Source of the DNA: Chitinophagaceae bacterium 26-R-25
GTDB taxonomy: Bacteria; Bacteroidota; Bacteroidia; Chitinophagales; Chitinophagaceae
Assembly (NCBI GenBank): GCA_029906195.1
Contig: JARWSJ010000001.1
Location: forward strand, 3,038,001 to 3,102,000
Direction: 5' to 3'
Length of the DNA: 64,000 bases
In this document: piece after piece, positions 7,960 to 22,815 of the stretch
How the letters are laid out: every line of letters starts with the position of its first letter
Position numbering within the stretch: the first letter of the stretch is position 1
Notes under the pieces: model-generated
Seen by the model: only the letters and a program-made list of their open reading frames with translations
What the model was told of the DNA's origin: nothing
Databases searched by the model: none
Made by a program: the position numbers and the translations under genes

Positions 7960-8481
7960 TTAGAAATCGTCTTCAGGCCAGTTGGTAGTTCCTGTACCTT
8001 TCATCTCATATGTCGTAGGATCATCTGAGAATTTTATTTTGAAGTAGATGCTGTCGGTTACCACACCTGTTGTTGAGTGGGCCGCCTTATGCATTATTTT
8101 ACCCTCCGTAATAGTTGCCGCATCTGGTACATACGTATTAGGATTCGTAATCCATTTTGCTTTGCTTGTAGCATACAAATTTTCTGTGTTTGTTGGGCTT
8201 GCAAACGTCAGGTCTTGCATATTGATCCCGGCTCTCAATTGAAATCCGATATAAGGCTCAGCGAGCTGATCAATCCATATTGAATCTTTATCGGTAGATG
8301 TATTTACAGTAGAGAGCTTTAACGGCGCTGGATATTGTTCATCTCCGTTGTAATAAAGCATTACCCAGAATTCACCCGTCGCCTTTTGCATACTTATCTG
8401 TCCGGGGTCATTTGTTTTTTGGCAACCTGCAAACCCTCCTACGGCCAATAAAGCCAATATATATATTCTGATATTTTTCAT
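7960..8481 (-). CDS. outer-membrane lipoprotein, Lipid_bd-like, accessory to SusCD
   Basis: A 173-residue lipoprotein from the ATG at 8481. Its signal peptide ends in a lipobox-like GGFAGC with Cys20 as the lipidation site. The remainder is an all-beta-looking domain (GEFWVMLYYNGDEQ, DSIYFKIKFSDDP). Position and length match the last gene of BT2261-2264-type operons, where the equivalent protein is annotated as a putative lipid-binding lipoprotein. A start at 8505 would overlap the upstream gene and put a charged stretch before the signal peptide, so it is less likely. Likely a surface subunit of the neighbouring SusC/SusD complex; exact role unknown. Confidence 0.75.
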   Translation of the reverse strand: MKNIRIYILALLAVGGFAGCQKTNDPGQISMQKATGEFWVMLYYNGDEQYPAPLKLSTVNTSTDKDSIWIDQLAEPYIGFQLRAGINMQDLTFASPTNTENLYATSKAKWITNPNTYVPDAATITEGKIMHKAAHSTTGVVTDSIYFKIKFSDDPTTYEMKGTGTTNWPEDDF

Positions 8482-8491
8482 TTTTTTTGAT

Positions 8492-9163
8492 TTACTGTTT
8501 AACAAAGTTCCTTACCTGTGTACCGTAACCGCCAGCAAGAAATGACCAGGAATATTTTGGTGGTGTAGCGGTTGCATTATATGTTTCGCTAGCTCCACTT
8601 ACTATGCCGACTACTCCATCCGGGTCGGTTGCATACTGCTTGGGAATGGCAATTTTACTGCCGGTATAGTTTACTACTTTAATAACATAACCAAAACCGA
8701 CTCCCGCTCCGCCTGGATTGTCTACATTGTAAACACCTTTTGCTGTCTTAGTCCATGTGCTTAGTAAACCATTAACATCTCTCGCGTAACTGCCCGAATA
8801 ATCATTACTAGCTACATCATTACCAATTACAACAACTGTTCTCCAGTCAGTTGCAGAAAACCCGTCGTCATTAGTGGCAGTGTAAGTAAGATTATACACA
8901 GCAGGTACAGCGGTATTTACACTTCCGCTTACTACGGGTGTTATGGGCTGGCCGTTAACTGTTGCAGTTGCACCGGCATCTGTATATGCGGCGCCCTGGT
9001 CTAAAATAATCAAATATTCTCCATTGGTGCTTATAATCGGGTAATAGGTTATTTTAGAAATGCCCACGTGCGTATCACTCTCTACTGGAGAATATTTGCG
9101 GCACGCCCCCAAAGTGAGGCATGTCGCAGTTATTATGAATAATGATAAAATATTTCTAGTCAT
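8492..9163 (-). CDS. surface lipoprotein with Ig-like domain (DUF5011/5012 type), SusCD accessory
   Basis: A 223-residue lipoprotein with lipobox LTLGAC (Cys21). Residues about 35-110 look like a bacterial Ig-like module (GAAYTDAGATATVNG...YTATNDDGFSAT). The C-terminal half is a separate domain with a Gly/Tyr-rich pattern (NDYSGSYARDVNG). This arrangement corresponds to BT2262-type proteins that sit on SusCD complexes in B. thetaiotaomicron. It is 22 nt downstream of susD and 10 nt upstream of the next lipoprotein, so it is clearly in the operon. Function as a ligand-binding or lid-associated subunit is inferred from the operon. Confidence 0.75.
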   Translation of the reverse strand: MTRNILSLFIITATCLTLGACRKYSPVESDTHVGISKITYYPIISTNGEYLIILDQGAAYTDAGATATVNGQPITPVVSGSVNTAVPAVYNLTYTATNDDGFSATDWRTVVVIGNDVASNDYSGSYARDVNGLLSTWTKTAKGVYNVDNPGGAGVGFGYVIKVVNYTGSKIAIPKQYATDPDGVVGIVSGASETYNATATPPKYSWSFLAGGYGTQVRNFVKQ

Positions 9164-9184
9164 TGTTAATCTTTTAAGTTATGA

Positions 9185-10690
9185 TTATAAACTCCACCAA
9201 ACAGGCTTGGTTATAGGATTATCTGATATCGAAGGTGTGTTGTTATTTCTTTGACGCTCATTGTCCGGGAACACTAGTCGTTTAGGGAATTGACCCGGAG
9301 ATAAAGATGAAGACGCAGAAACTACAAGCTGACCAGGAATATAACTAGCATTTGTTGAATAGACAGCGCTTGTTTTAGGAAAACCGGTTCTGTTTTTTTC
9401 GAAGAATGCTTCCAATTGGTGGGCGCCATAAGCAAGGGATGCCCATTTTTGACGGATGATTTGCTCGAGTGGAGTCAATGCCACACCGCCTTCCATTTCT
9501 TTACCCCATTCGTATTTACCACCGGCGTTTATGAATGAAGACGCATCCAATCCAACTGCTGCAAAGGCTGCTGTTACGCCTGCATCGTAAAGAGATTTAG
9601 CATCGCCAAGACCATAACGTACTGCCACTTCAGCCTGCATGAAATAGGACTCCGCAGCAGAGATGAAGTAAGCCGGATCGTTGTATTTCTGAACAAACAC
9701 AGCAGCGTTATTATAAGTAGGATCAGTGCCCGCATAATCGCCCTGGTTGATACCAATCGGAGAAGCTGCACCGAAATAAGAAACTGCTCTTGGGTCAGCG
9801 TTTCCAGTTAACCATGTTGTAAAGGTTCTGCTGGCTTTTATGTTAGTGGTTGTGTTCAGACTGCGAATGTTAAAATCAAACATTGGGTTATCCAAACCCG
9901 GAGCATCTGTAAAGTTTGTAATTGAAGCGTCAGACGTTAAAAACTGAACGCCTTCATCATACATCGCTTTGATGCCCGCTTGTGCTACATCAGCGTGTTT
10001 ATTCACCATGCGCAGATATAACTTAAGCTTCATTGTATTTGCAAAAGCTGTCCATTTGTCCAGATCGCCGGCAAATACAAGATCAGAAGCACTGAAACCA
10101 GGCGTAGCTGAAGTTGAAACAGAAATCAGTGACAAATCTTTACTCAACCCCTGATTAATGCTATCGATCAATGCCTGGTAAATAGTGTAGCCATCATCAA
10201 ACTTAGGTTGAAGGTTTTTGGCACCCTGCAACGCTTCTGTGTAAGGTATTTGATCATATAGATCCACCAGGAAAGAAGTAGAATAAGCTTTCATCGTCTG
10301 AGCCATTAGGTAATATGACCAGTCTGCATTCAATGTCGCTTTGTCTACTGTAAGCTGATAACTGTTTATTGCTCTTGAAAAAGAGTTAGCGTAGCTGGTG
10401 TTAAAGTCTGATGACTGTACGTTGTAACCATCAATGTATTTATACTGGGCAGATACAGATGACTGCGTAAAATATTGGGCCCAGATTCCACCTAATATTT
10501 GATAATCGCTGGCTTGCCCGCCCAAAGTTCCCAAAAGACCTGCCGGGAAAGTTATCTGGGGAGTTGACTGGTCAACGCTTGGAAAGTTAGGATCCTGGTT
10601 TATATCTAGTTGTTTTTTGCACCCTGTACCGGCAACAACCAATGCTAGTGCAATTATTCCTGCTTTATATTTATTTATTCTTGTTTTCAT
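9185..10690 (-). CDS. SusD/RagB-family substrate-binding lipoprotein
   Basis: A 501-residue lipoprotein with Cys24 as the probable lipidation site (GTGCKKQ). The N-terminal LDINQDPN and the TPR-like helical scaffold (FNTSYANSFSRAINSYQLTVDKA, QTMKAYSTSFLVDLYDQIPY) identify the SusD-like_2 group. SusD proteins are the lid of the SusC barrel and bind substrate at the cell surface. It starts 19 nt after the susC stop. The group often serves peptides or unknown glycans; no polysaccharide-degrading enzyme is nearby. Confidence 0.93.
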   Translation of the reverse strand: MKTRINKYKAGIIALALVVAGTGCKKQLDINQDPNFPSVDQSTPQITFPAGLLGTLGGQASDYQILGGIWAQYFTQSSVSAQYKYIDGYNVQSSDFNTSYANSFSRAINSYQLTVDKATLNADWSYYLMAQTMKAYSTSFLVDLYDQIPYTEALQGAKNLQPKFDDGYTIYQALIDSINQGLSKDLSLISVSTSATPGFSASDLVFAGDLDKWTAFANTMKLKLYLRMVNKHADVAQAGIKAMYDEGVQFLTSDASITNFTDAPGLDNPMFDFNIRSLNTTTNIKASRTFTTWLTGNADPRAVSYFGAASPIGINQGDYAGTDPTYNNAAVFVQKYNDPAYFISAAESYFMQAEVAVRYGLGDAKSLYDAGVTAAFAAVGLDASSFINAGGKYEWGKEMEGGVALTPLEQIIRQKWASLAYGAHQLEAFFEKNRTGFPKTSAVYSTNASYIPGQLVVSASSSLSPGQFPKRLVFPDNERQRNNNTPSISDNPITKPVWWSL

Positions 10691-10709
10691 GCTTGCTTCA
10701 ATTTTTTAA

Positions 10710-13700
10710 TTAAAAACTAAGTTTAAGCGCTACACCATATTGTTTAGAAAGAGGCATTGCTCTAAACTCTCCCAATTCACCTTGAATATCATTACCCTGG
10801 TTTGTTCCTTCAGGGTCAACATACGCATTCGCCTTTGGAGTCCACAGCAAGAAGTTGCGACCATAAACACTAAGAGCAGCATTGGTTGCCTTAATTTTTG
10901 AAGCCCATGCTTGTGGCAATCTATATGATAAAGAAACATCTCTCAGTTTCAGGAAAGACTTATCAAAAATTCTCTGATAGTAAGCCAAACCTTTGTTGTT
11001 GGTAGGATAGAAATAATCGTAGAAATCGTTCTTAGGAATGTATGTTGTGTTTTCTACATAGTGAGTGTGACCACCTGCATCAGTCACCGCGTTAACTGAA
11101 TTTGGAATAATGAAAGGCTGTCTGTCATTATACAAAGTTGCTTTTGCATTACCTGTAAACAGTAACAAGTCAGCAGTACCGCTGTACATAACGCCGCCTT
11201 TACGATAGTCCAAAGAGAAGTTCAATGTCCAGTCTTTGTAAGTAAAGGTGTTGGTTAGGCCCATCATGTAGTCACGTTGTGCAGAACCGTAATAACCTTT
11301 ATCATCGGCAGCAACAGAGAACCCTGTTTGCGCATTTACTATCATTTTACCTGTTGCGCTATCAATAGCAGGAACAGGAGCATAGAAAGCACCCACTGGT
11401 TTACCAACAACAACATCCAACTCAGCATCATAGGCATCATTCAAAATTACTTTTGACAATGCACTGTTTAAGCTAACAACATTGTTCCAGTTTTTAGAAT
11501 AAGTATACACGAGATTCCATGTGAAATCTTTTGTATCGATTGGTTTAGCGTCGACAGTAAGCTCGATACCTTTGTTCGTAATCTCTCCAAGGTTTTGTAC
11601 AAGTCTTGTTGCACCCGTAGATGGAGAAATTGGCACTTGCAGAATTTGACCTTTGGTTGATTTATCGTAATAAGTCGCGTCTACACCCAATCTGTTTTTA
11701 AAGAACCTGATCTCAGTACCAAATTCAAACTCGGTTGTTTTCACCGGTGACAAACCTGGGTTGCCGATTGTACTCGATGTGGTGAATGCCGGCGTACCGT
11801 TGAAAGGAGCTTTCACTGTACCAAATGGCATTTGAACCGTACCAGGAGCTAATGTTGAATAAACAAAGTACGGGTCCGCATCAGAACCGGTTTGACCGTA
11901 ACCCGCTCTCACTTTCCAGAAAGAAATCGCTGTTCTGTCAAGGTTCAGTGTTTTTGAAGCTATCCATGATACGTTCGCACCTGGATAGAAGAAGCTATTG
12001 TTGCCAGTTGGCAAAGTAGACGACCAGTCGTTACGTGCGTTACCACTGATAAACACCTGATCTTTCCATCCAAAAGTTACCTGACCATAAGCACCAATTC
12101 TTTTCTTGTGGGTTTGGTAATCATTGGCAGTTGGAAGGTTCTTAGAGTTTGACAAATTAAAGAAGCCTGGAATTACAAGGTCCGTAATCTGTGTAAGCAC
12201 GTTCTTTTGATCTGCCTGGTAGTAGTTTACACCTGCAGTCGCATCAACTGTCCAGTCATTGCTGATGTTAGCATTGTATTTAAGTAAAAAGTCTCCGTTA
12301 ACCAAACCGTAGTAATCACCTTCTTGTGCTACAGAACCCACGTCTGGGTTTCTTTTTGCGCCCTCAGGGTTTGCACCGGCATTCCAGCTACCAGGTTTGG
12401 GCGCATTCACTTGCTTGTAGCTAAACTGACGAGCGTTAGTGAAATCTCCACCCAATCTGAATTCTGCAGCAAGATGGTTGTTTATTTTGTAACTCATGTC
12501 CACGTTACCAAAGAACCTGTCAGATGTTTGAGTGTTTTTATTTTCATTCAAAGCATAATAAGGGTTCTCGGCAAATGGAGTGAAGTAGTTGTCTACGTTG
12601 AAGAATTTGTTTTTATAAGCCTGGAAATCCCTGATAGGAATATCTACAGGAATTTGTAAAATTTCTTCGAAGAAAGAAGCACCGTCGCTACCACCCTGTC
12701 CTGTAAAAGGAGCATTCATTCTTCTGTTAACATAGTTAAGAGAAGTGTTGATTGTGAATTTATCGTAGGTGCTGTTTGTGCGCAATGCAAAAGAGTTACG
12801 TTGTAAGTAATCAGCATCTGTAGGAATGACACCATTACTTGTCACGTTACCGTAAGAGAAATAAAATCTGTTGTTTGTGTTACCACCAGAAAGAGCGAGC
12901 GTATTATTATACTCTGTACCTACATTGTAAACATCGCGAACGTTGTTTTCAATAAATGAGAAAGGTTTAACCAATTGCGAGTTGTCTACAACGGAGCCCC
13001 ATACTCTCATTTTGCCATCAAGTTTAGGACCCCAGCTACCATTCTCAGAAAGAATAAACTGAGCACCCCAACCCTGACCGTATTGATCCTGCATTACAGG
13101 CATTTTACCTACGTAGCTAAAATTGGCAGAACCTGAATAATCGATTTTCAGCTTGCCGCTTTTACCGCGTTTGGTAGTGATCATGATTACACCATTCTTA
13201 GCCAATGAACCATAAAGAGAAGACGCGGCAGTACCTTTTAGTACTGTAATGTTTTCAATGTCATTAGGGTTAACGCTACTCATACCATTACCAAAATCAA
13301 CATTGCCATTTAAGGACAATGGGCTGTTAGGGCTGATAGGGCTGGCATCGCTTAAAGGCACACCGTCAATTACATATAGTGGTTGGTTGTTACCACCACC
13401 GATAACTCCATAACCGCGCAATACAACTTTTGTAGAAGATCCAGGACCACCCTGGTTAGAAATGTCCGCGCCTGCAATTTTACCTGCAAGGCCATCCAGC
13501 ATACCTACCGGAGCGGTTCTTGTGATAGCAGTATTACTAAATGTCGTAGTGGAATAACCAAGCTTGGCTTTGCTTTGGGTTTGGCCGAGCGCCGTTACTA
13601 CAACTTCCTGCAAACCGCCTTGCGCGTTATTCAGAACAACAGATACCGTTGATCCGCTAACAGAAGCTTCTTTTGTATCGAAGCCACTTGCACTAAAAAT

Positions 13701-19458: not shown

Positions 19459-19767
19459 TCAGGCTTGAGCTGCCGGACCACCAAAGTTCATTGGCAATTG
19501 AACTTCCTCCAAATCCTTAATATCACCGTTTACGGCCTCAAATCTGTTAATGTTATCAACCAGCGCTTTCATCAATCTCTTCGCATGTTGAGGGGTTAAT
19601 ATGATACGGGATTTCACTTTACTTTTTGGTGTATTGGGCATCACGTTGACAAAATCAACTACAAATTCTGCATGTGAATGTGTAATGATCGCCAGGTTTG
19701 CGTATTGCCCCTCAGCCATTTCTTCGGATATTTCTATATTAAGTTGATTCTGCTGATTATTTTCCAT
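19459..19767 (-). CDS. DUF3467 family protein
   Basis: A 102-residue cytoplasmic protein starting at the ATG at 19767 (MENNQQNQLNIEISEE). The pattern GQYANLAIITHSHAEFVVDFVN, followed by SRIILTPQHAKRLMKALVDN, is the DUF3467 signature: a small all-in-one beta/alpha protein of unknown function, common in Bacteroidota. The open frame extends upstream to 19854, but those codons are inside an AT-rich repeat arm, so the internal ATG is preferred. Single-gene unit with its own terminator. Function unknown. Confidence 0.88.
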   Translation of the reverse strand: MENNQQNQLNIEISEEMAEGQYANLAIITHSHAEFVVDFVNVMPNTPKSKVKSRIILTPQHAKRLMKALVDNINRFEAVNGDIKDLEEVQLPMNFGGPAAQA

Positions 19768-19933: not shown

Positions 19934-21991
19934 CTAAAACTCAGTAATAATTTGCGCCTTAATTTCCGATCGTTTATTGCCGGCAATCATGTCCAACCCG
20001 GAGCCTATTGATTGTTTATTTGAATAAATGGTTTGGCTCCATTTCAGCCAGCAGTCAATACCAAATTGTTTTTTCATTTTTAGCAGAGAGGCAAGGTTTA
20101 CTCTGCAATTGATATAATAGTGAAGCCCTGTGTCGAAAAACTCCGGCACAGAATAATTGTACAGCAGATCACTCTCGTAAGCATACAATCTTGAATTGTA
20201 GCCGTTTGTTTCAAAATATTGCAACCTTAAATTTCCGGACAATACTTTAGAAGGTTTGAAATCGCCCTGGGCAAACATCAAAAATCCCTGTTCTCTAAAA
20301 CTACCATTGTTATCGTACCAAATCGCTTCCACCCTGCTGCCCAAAGCAATTTTTTCATTGAGCTGGGTTGAGCTTTGTATCCGGAGATTATTCTGTGGAA
20401 GATCCGTCAAAACCTTTGTGGCATTGCTATCGGATAGAAAACTTTTTTGTTTGGTTTTAGATTTGAATAGCAGGGAAAAGGTTGTTCTTTTATTTGGCAA
20501 ATAAGTCAATTGAATTAAATAGTCTTTCCCACGGGATGGTGCGTCGACAAGATATTTTAGCCATGGAAAACTGAACGCATCTGCATATGCATCTATCCTA
20601 ATGGCCGAAAAAGGTTTTAGCGAAATGCCGGCGTAAAACCCTCTTTCATTATTGGGTGATGTATTTTCTGTAAATGCATTTGCATATAAAGACTGATAAG
20701 CTTTGCTAATATTTCTATACAAAAACGCTGCATCGGCTTTCGCTCCAAGACTAAGCAATAATCCCTGCAGCAGCGCAAATTTCCTGTTTTTATCTGCTGC
20801 TATTTCGCCAAATAAATGCATGTTCCTGTAAGTGTAACTGTAATCCACGCTGGCATTGCCCCAATTTTTCCCACTTAATGCATAAAGGTTGTAGGGCTTG
20901 TCTTCCTTTTGAAATTCTTTGGAAAAACGATACAGCACCGCGTTTGCGGCTATGTGCCAGTTGTATTTTTTATACCTGGCGGAAGCGCCACCGGCAATTT
21001 GCCGTAGGCTGTTTTTATCGCTCAATTCAGCCGATGTTCGATGATAGCCCGATGTTTGAAAAGAAGATATACGCTCGTCATCTTCATCCTGCACTATATT
21101 GCCGCTTAGTTTTCTGAAAGAAATAAATGAGGTTAGCGACCAGTGGTTGTTTTCAACAAGGCAACCTGCACCACGATGAAAATTATAGGACCCGGAAGAA
21201 TTGTATGGACGTAACGTTTGGGCATCTCTTTTTATATTTAGAACAGAGGCACTTTTCCCAAATGCAAGACTTTGCCATTGTACCAGGCCCTGGCCAAAAT
21301 TTACCGTAAAGTCACCTAGCGCCAGTAGTTTTATTTTACCAATATTTTTTGCAAAAAAATGAAACGTGTAAAAGTCAAAACCATTCTTTTGAGAACCTTT
21401 GAAAAACTGCTCCCCCGCGTCTTTATCGCCTGCAATACCAAATTGCAAAAGGTTATTGTAATTGTACTTGTATCGCATAAAAAGCGCATCACGACTACCG
21501 AAATAATAGTTCGAATTTTCTGTAGCCGGAGGTTGATATCCCCTTGCCTGCTCCGTCACTTTTCCATACCTCATCAGCAAAGACTGGCTTCCCCCAGAAA
21601 ATCGTGACCTAAAATTTGACAGCAAATTTTTGTCGTCAGCTACCGTTACATAAGGCAGCAAGCTTTTTATCACAGCAACATCCCAACCGGGAATAGCCTG
21701 CAATTCGTAAATACTAATAAGCCTTCCCAGCAATTGCCTGTAGCGCAAAAAATTTTCTATTTGCGGGTCGGACAAAAGTTTAAGTTCCTTCAGCTCATTT
21801 TCATTTGCTTCATTAAGATTAAGCGGGTGTTTCCTGTAGAACATTTGGCTCTGCCAGTAGCTGTCATCAGTGATGGCATCTTCGCTATTTTCAACAGCTG
21901 TTTCTATTTGCTCTGCTCCAACATCATTTGGTTTGTCCTGGCAAAAAACATTCAATGAAATCAGCAAAAACAGCGTGAATATTATTTTCAT
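19934..21991 (-). CDS. helix-hairpin-helix envelope protein with predicted C-terminal beta-barrel
   Basis: A 685-residue protein with a signal peptide (1-17, ending FCQ). Residues about 53-118 form paired helix-hairpin-helix motifs of the ComEA/GspK sort (HPLNLNEANENELKELK and IYELQAIPGWDVAVIKSLL). The remaining about 550 residues have alternating beta-strand patterns rich in Tyr and Asn, ending in QIITEF, typical of an outer-membrane barrel. The start codon overlaps the stop of the upstream barrel gene by 4 nt (ATGA), so the two are translationally coupled. HhH motifs of this type often bind DNA or cap a pilus, but no function is established for this architecture as far as I know. Confidence 0.72.
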   Translation of the reverse strand: MKIIFTLFLLISLNVFCQDKPNDVGAEQIETAVENSEDAITDDSYWQSQMFYRKHPLNLNEANENELKELKLLSDPQIENFLRYRQLLGRLISIYELQAIPGWDVAVIKSLLPYVTVADDKNLLSNFRSRFSGGSQSLLMRYGKVTEQARGYQPPATENSNYYFGSRDALFMRYKYNYNNLLQFGIAGDKDAGEQFFKGSQKNGFDFYTFHFFAKNIGKIKLLALGDFTVNFGQGLVQWQSLAFGKSASVLNIKRDAQTLRPYNSSGSYNFHRGAGCLVENNHWSLTSFISFRKLSGNIVQDEDDERISSFQTSGYHRTSAELSDKNSLRQIAGGASARYKKYNWHIAANAVLYRFSKEFQKEDKPYNLYALSGKNWGNASVDYSYTYRNMHLFGEIAADKNRKFALLQGLLLSLGAKADAAFLYRNISKAYQSLYANAFTENTSPNNERGFYAGISLKPFSAIRIDAYADAFSFPWLKYLVDAPSRGKDYLIQLTYLPNKRTTFSLLFKSKTKQKSFLSDSNATKVLTDLPQNNLRIQSSTQLNEKIALGSRVEAIWYDNNGSFREQGFLMFAQGDFKPSKVLSGNLRLQYFETNGYNSRLYAYESDLLYNYSVPEFFDTGLHYYINCRVNLASLLKMKKQFGIDCWLKWSQTIYSNKQSIGSGLDMIAGNKRSEIKAQIITEF

Positions 21992-22815
21992 TTTGCTGCT
22001 GTTTCTGAAAAATTAAAAACCATCATTAACGAAGGAGAAAAACCCAGCTGTTGATGATAAGAACTAATTACATCAAGCCTCATGGCGCTCCATAAAATTC
22101 CAACACCCAGAAAATAGTTTGCTATTGCTGAGCTCACACCGCCTCTTGCCAAAAAATGATTGTTGAAATTATATTGCATGGCGGTATTTACATTCACCGG
22201 AAGATTTTCTTCCTTAGCAATCTCAGCGCTTACAAAAAAATTTTCCGAAGCGTCATACCCCACCCCGGCCTTGTAAATGGATGCAAATTTCTCAGAGCTA
22301 TTTTTTCCAAATTTGCCTCCCACAGGATTGTAAATATGCAATCCCATTGTAACCTTACTTGACAAAAAGAATAATGTTCCCAATTCAAAATTTACCGTTG
22401 ATGCGGCGCCATAACCAGTGATGCGCACCTGGTTAAAATTTACCTGCGTTCCAATGGCAATATTGCTTGCCAGCAAAAGGCCATAGGCCAACCCCGCCTG
22501 TGTTTCGTTAAAATCTCCACTCCCGGAATAATACATGTTCACACCAACTCCCGCATTTTTTAAAGGAATGCCTATCACGCCGTGGTAATTGCCCAAAGCA
22601 TTCAATCCAAATCGTTTCTCGCCGTACAGCCCGGCTGCTGAATTTTTCAGATTGCCCAAAGCAGCCTGGTTACCGGAAAAAGAAAATACGTCCGCAAATT
22701 TTTTGCTGTAGGTTACTGCGCCTGTATAATGATTACTAAGTGGGGAGCGAACAATTTGAGCAAAGGAAAAAGAAACAAAACAAGAGGTAAGTATCTGTAA
22801 GAAAATAATTTTCAT
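21988..22815 (-). CDS. PorV/PorQ-like outer-membrane barrel protein
   Basis: A 275-residue protein with a signal peptide (1-19, ending SFAQ). FSGNQAALGNL resembles the 'NPA' plug-strand motif of the FadL/PorV superfamily. The rest is regular amphipathic strands (GIPLKNAGVGVNMYYSG, TVNFELGTLFFLS), finishing with SPSLMMVFNFSETAAK. It is first in a two-gene operon and overlaps the helix-hairpin-helix gene by 4 nt. PorV proteins carry type IX cargo or act as lipid porins; a specific role for this one is not visible from sequence. Confidence 0.65.
   Translation of the reverse strand: MKIIFLQILTSCFVSFSFAQIVRSPLSNHYTGAVTYSKKFADVFSFSGNQAALGNLKNSAAGLYGEKRFGLNALGNYHGVIGIPLKNAGVGVNMYYSGSGDFNETQAGLAYGLLLASNIAIGTQVNFNQVRITGYGAASTVNFELGTLFFLSSKVTMGLHIYNPVGGKFGKNSSEKFASIYKAGVGYDASENFFVSAEIAKEENLPVNVNTAMQYNFNNHFLARGGVSSAIANYFLGVGILWSAMRLDVISSYHQQLGFSPSLMMVFNFSETAAK

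Follow-up and report, generated by a model that had tools for sequence, protein, structure and literature searches.

A conserved gene pair of Bacteroidota encoding a ComEA-fold domain fused to a large outer-membrane barrel, a candidate DNA-uptake channel

The window (the whole 64,000-nucleotide stretch that was analysed, from a Chitinophagaceae genome) encodes a protein, here called HH, in which a ComEA-fold helix-hairpin-helix (HhH) domain is fused to a large predicted outer-membrane barrel; the fusion is conserved and undescribed. Literature searches returned no description of an HhH and outer-membrane barrel fusion of this kind. Together with the gene for a second outer-membrane protein, PV, HH makes up a gene pair that is widespread in Bacteroidota and has no name. 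No single explanation of HH fits better than DNA uptake, and HH is a leading but unproven candidate for outer-membrane DNA passage during transformation in Bacteroidota and Chlorobiota without a type IV pilus or secretin route (probability roughly 0.5). At issue is the passage of DNA through the outer membrane of bacteria that lack type IV pili. Genetic work in Riemerella has indicated that Bacteroidota use unfamiliar transformation parts, and HH is one conserved gene that most of the phylum carries, as does a family with a model member that undergoes routine transformation in the laboratory. If the proposal is correct, HH would account for the exchange of genes throughout a major phylum of environmental and host-associated bacteria, and would represent a second kind of outer-membrane channel for DNA.

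The gene pair and its predicted products

The two genes were located as open reading frames on the minus strand of the window and, as the initial annotation had stated, overlap by 4 nt. The following features were assigned.

21988–22815, minus strand: PV, a 275-residue PorV/PorQ-like outer-membrane protein, first gene of the pair (open reading frame)
19934–21991, minus strand: HH, second gene of the pair, whose 685-residue product joins a ComEA-fold HhH domain to a large outer-membrane barrel (open reading frame)
21988–21991, minus strand: ATGA start/stop overlap of PV and HH, 4 nt
21941–21991, minus strand: putative signal peptide of HH, residues about 1–17, MKIIFTLFLLISLNVFCQ, assigned from the sequence
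21638–21835, minus strand: (HhH)2 domain of HH with degenerate hairpins, residues 53–118 (PF12836, TIGR01259, AlphaFold2 helices)
19937–21589, minus strand: predicted outer-membrane barrel of HH, residues 135–685, about 24–26 strands (AlphaFold2, Foldseek)

A gene matching the PV profile was found directly upstream of HH at 53 of 69 loci outside the Chlorobiaceae and at 0 of 73 Chlorobiaceae loci, and the spacing was exactly −4 at 14 of the 22 junctions measured. The pairing is far above chance and constitutes a real conserved unit, within which HH is both more widespread and better conserved than PV. The window genome (G000, 6.5 Mb) contains one full-length HH. A small protein, which we take to be DUF3467-like, is encoded closely after HH (window 19459–19767, minus strand) and is kept downstream in several Chitinophagaceae loci.

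Separate structure predictions returned the HhH domain and both barrels. The AlphaFold2 model of HH, calculated with 49 homologs (mean pLDDT 89.7), consists of a signal helix, a helical linker, HhH helices at residues 64–69, 75–88, 94–99 and 105–114 and, from residue 135, a barrel of about 24–26 predicted strands and ~550 residues. The ~550 residues of barrel-like sequence noted initially were recovered at residues 135–684; the HhH motifs, placed straight after the signal peptide in the same annotation, are indeed N-terminal but are separated from it by a helical linker of ~35 residues. The structures listed as Foldseek matches are outer-membrane barrels, with 6r2q_B of the Mtr complex as the best of them. 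HH shares with this MtrB-type barrel a large single-chain architecture, but the identity is ~9%, no cytochrome partner was seen beside HH and HH carries an HhH domain. Invariant or nearly invariant barrel residues were found in the motifs KDAGE, GD, GQGL, RG and NE. Comparison of the window HH sequence with the PDB gave chance matches only, and a BFVD fold search gave generic viral porins only.

Residues 53–117 of the window HH matched PF12836 (E = 6.5e-4) and TIGR01259 comEA (E = 2.3e-4), both under the curated cut-offs; for TIGR01259 the score was 21.2 bits and the cut-off of 152 bits was not reached. The HhH fold is nevertheless real, though weak in the window protein: 45 of 49 family members matched PF12836 (best 8e-19), 34 of 49 matched TIGR01259 (best 1.9e-13) and the corresponding helices are present in the model. 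Solved ComEA structures were found with the family profile (8dss, E = 1.8e-10; 8dfk, E = 8.7e-9), and the GspK domain matched weakly. By sequence comparison the soluble domain is matched best by the ComEA family, which was counted as indirect support for DNA uptake.

PV was modelled as a 14-strand barrel with N-terminal helices (pLDDT 89.1), with FadL and TodX as the top Foldseek matches, and is predicted to be a FadL/PorV-type outer-membrane barrel. NCBIfam NF033709 (PorV_fam) was matched by 32 of 37 family members and the family profile matched PorV (6h3i_F, E = 5e-6), which agrees with the earlier label 'PorV-like', although the window PV itself matches no PorV model. PV resembles PorV and PorQ of the type IX secretion system (T9SS) in its FadL-like 14-strand fold and in its family match to the PorV/PorQ profile, but it is shorter (275 residues) and is paired with HH, a protein that does not track SprA.

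Distribution and links to competence genes

Homologs of HH were found in 36 of 61 near relatives of the window genome and, by profile search (E < 1e-25), in 169 of 228 genomes across the phylum. They were present in all 50 Chlorobiaceae (f36) sampled and in named Chlorobaculum and Chlorobium records. Family f36 was assigned to the Chlorobiaceae by the FMO marker (four members tested) together with the named records of its HH homologs; the names Flavobacteriaceae (f25), Weeksellaceae (f24), Chitinophagaceae (f1) and Saprospiraceae (f19) are putative and were drawn partly from genus structure and gene content.

In family f23 (G176, G135, G192 and G062; three genera) HH is followed by an adjacent and co-directional comEC gene, identified by Pfam (E 2e-59 to 2e-52), with junctions of 1–10 nt overlap or a 2–3 nt gap. 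The order is PV–HH–comEC in genera g75 and g80, and G062 (g65) has no PV. This gene order was counted as indirect support for DNA uptake, and its confinement to a single family, probably through one event, was counted against. A comEC gene was found in 225 of the 228 genomes; the three without it, all of family f56, are also without HH, again indirect support. Linkage to a competence gene was thus seen in f23 only, and the comEC-less genomes represent only one family. Most HH neighbourhoods hold no competence gene. The dprA gene of the window, offered as a hint in the initial annotation, lies ~4.7 kb from the pair on the opposite strand; none was seen in other HH loci, most of which comprised only 1.5 kb flanks, and its proximity carries no weight as evidence.

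A transposon screen in R. anatipestifer showed ComEC, DprA, ComF and RecA to be essential for transformation, as were RA0C_RS04915 (a barrel with CarboxypepD_reg), RS04920 (DUF5689), RS02645 (HhH, periplasmic) and RS09020 (DUF1343) (PMC8459023). In genus g62 of the Saprospiraceae (f19) HH stands tail to tail with a NamZ/DUF1343 gene, which was counted as indirect support for DNA uptake because DUF1343 is also essential in Riemerella. The Riemerella components RS04915, RS04920 and RS02645 resemble HH in combining an outer-membrane barrel with an HhH component in comEC-dependent uptake, and their distribution is complementary to that of HH. However, the homologs of RS04915 resemble TonB receptors, carry a CarboxypepD_reg domain and are non-homologous to HH (hhalign probability 2.6%), and the HhH protein of Riemerella is separate.

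Neighbouring genes resembling RS04915 and RS04920 were located in f24 and f25 via DUF5689, and a profile (A5) was built from them. Orthologs of the RS04915-type barrel were found in 23 of 24 f25 genomes, 3 of 3 f24 genomes and 94 of 199 Chitinophagaceae; at ortholog level the barrel was also missing from the three comEC-less f56 genomes, which form one family. Across the 228 genomes of the phylum, four carried both HH and the RS04915-type barrel, 165 HH only, 30 the RS04915-type barrel only and 29 neither. The last group, 26 of which carry comEC, was counted against DNA uptake by HH. The corresponding numbers for the 199 Chitinophagaceae were 8, 81, 86 and 24 by genome (Fisher p = 3e-24, uncorrected) and 5, 32, 41 and 12 by genus (p = 2e-9). 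On an rpoB tree of 123 of these Chitinophagaceae genomes the HH state changes ~7 times and the exclusion rests on about 5–7 changes. Independent-pair tests gave 0.1 same versus 2.1 opposite, with nearly every informative pair in the expected direction, and cannot reach significance because the independent changes are too few. The rarity of coexistence was counted as indirect support for DNA uptake and its non-significance after phylogenetic control against; the pattern is suggestive of the two proteins replacing one another as the outer-membrane barrel.

Several further observations were made on these genes. A remnant resembling HH residues 453–599 is present in a genome with an A5 gene (G169:C3:44473-44904) and fits a recent replacement. 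In G430 (C1:427302-429226) HH is broken into two frames, and no RS04915-type barrel was found in that genome. The RS04915/RS04920-type genes are adjacent across f24 and f25 genomes (L067-L072), often with a nearby divergent gene that resembles the endonuclease/exonuclease/phosphatase family and is a possible uptake nuclease. A separate small HhH protein (a frame of about 310–360 residues) is encoded near rpoB in several Chitinophagaceae (G360:C22:59732-64778, G024:C1:1318557-1323103 and G286:C169:36045-41079) and is probably the counterpart of RS02645; a second HhH match was found in most of the 199 Chitinophagaceae genomes.

The PilQ secretin is the usual outer-membrane DNA-uptake channel. 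HH resembles it in its proposed role but differs in fold and assembly, and secretins are absent from all HH-bearing Bacteroidia sampled: a secretin was found in 0 of 24 such genomes, so that the PilQ route is unavailable there. This absence was counted as indirect support for DNA uptake by HH. Among the Chlorobiaceae a secretin was found in 20 of 50 genomes, including G160, in which HH is present; these could therefore use the pilus route, which was counted against. The presence of HH in all 50 members was counted in favour, again indirectly, since natural transformation serves as a working method for C. tepidum, a member of this family (PMC3842273).

DNA uptake and the alternatives

In HhH domains the Gly-x-Gly of the hairpin contacts the DNA phosphate. 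Hairpin 1 of the window HH reads LLS and has no Gly-x-Gly; outside the Chlorobiaceae only 7 of 54 members have glycine at hairpin-1 position 72, and the Chlorobiaceae consensus lacks it. The net charge of the domain is −3 in the window HH and about −0.8 as a family mean, that is, neutral to acidic rather than basic. HH is ComEA-like in its tandem (HhH)2 fold, in its putative periplasmic placement and in standing beside comEC in f23; it differs from ComEA in adding the ~550-residue barrel, in the loss of the hairpin Gly-x-Gly, in not being basic and in scoring below the curated ComEA cut-off. The fold is ComEA-like; DNA binding is unsupported by the sequence because of the missing Gly-x-Gly and the charge, and the 'periplasmic DNA-binding-type domain' of the initial annotation finds no support at this level. 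The broader idea that the pair handles DNA retains the HH–comEC order, the joint absence with comEC and the near-exclusion with the Riemerella barrel. The loss of the glycines of hairpin 1, seen in nearly all members, and the charge of the domain were counted against DNA uptake.

The same two properties favour the main rival reading, in which the outer-membrane channel formed by HH carries something other than DNA (a protein, a polysaccharide or a large solute) and the HhH domain is a periplasmic plug or protein-docking module that makes no DNA contact. The closest barrel folds among the matches listed, MtrB, AlgE and the TonB-dependent transporters, serve very different cargoes, near-universal conservation would suit a housekeeping transporter and most neighbourhoods are devoid of competence genes. 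This reading is nevertheless considered rather unlikely, as no family matches the soluble domain better than ComEA, comEC follows HH in f23 and HH nearly excludes a barrel of known function in competence.

An accessory role in the T9SS, in which PV would work like PorV as a shuttle or plug and HH would form an alternative translocon, is improbable. SprA (TIGR04189) was found in 177 of the 228 genomes, and the 51 without it (the 50 Chlorobiaceae and G062, in which HH abuts comEC) all carry HH. Both genes were present in 118 genomes, HH alone in 51 and SprA alone in 59, the last including 24 of 24 Flavobacteriaceae-type (f25) and 3 of 3 Weeksellaceae-type (f24) genomes sampled. From these two discordant groups HH is independent of the T9SS; the anticipated co-occurrence with T9SS genes did not hold, and for HH the accessory role is largely refuted by distribution. 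What speaks for it concerns PV, which is a member of the PorV/PorQ family and may be tied to SprA-bearing lineages, the only ones in which it was found beside HH (0 of 73 Chlorobiaceae loci). In several classes outside Bacteroidia PV also has DUF4835 as a divergent neighbour (L051-L054, L057-L059, L081, L082, L084, L085 and L087), a point counted against DNA uptake. DUF4835 is listed as a T9SS component (PMC9722745) and is probably the PorD of PMC8754138 and PMC10994853.

Export of DNA (as extracellular DNA for biofilm) or of a surface filament would suit the same anatomy, and GspK, the weak domain match, belongs to an export system, but this is very unlikely given that comEC, the f23 neighbour of HH, is an importer and that the neighbouring genes examined included no recognisable relaxase, pilin or secretion ATPase.

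For DNA uptake the following route is proposed, in which we infer both the substrate and the inward direction of transport. The large barrel of HH, presumed to be wide enough for double-stranded DNA, would admit DNA from outside; the ComEA-fold domain, at the inner mouth of the barrel on the periplasmic side, would act as a docking, gating or ratchet element and would pass the DNA on, first to HhH proteins of the periplasm that are separate from HH (RA0C_RS02645-like) and then to the inner-membrane protein ComEC. As an accessory, PV would dock to HH or cap it in lineages with a T9SS, and other lineages would do without it. A more specific form is put forward tentatively, as possible but a little short of an even chance: HH would be the outer-membrane DNA importer of most Bacteroidota and Chlorobiota, replaced by the Riemerella-type barrel in Flavobacteriia and some Chitinophagaceae, and would provide a pilus- and secretin-independent route built from a ComEA-fold domain on a ~26-strand barrel.

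Codon usage in one PV–HH locus

At one Chitinophagaceae locus (L083, G284:C1:824000-843000) the pair, at 8185–8967 and 8910–10907 on the plus strand, has open reading frames only when TGA is taken to encode Trp. Its HH contains 14 TGA and 8 TGG codons and its PV 8 TGA and 4 TGG, with no internal TAA or TAG. The SusC/SusD and rpoB genes of G284 have no in-frame TGA; one or two are present in each of a few others, among them an ispD-like gene, and nearly all stops are TAA or TAG. A reassignment of TGA to Trp in progress in this genome is possible.
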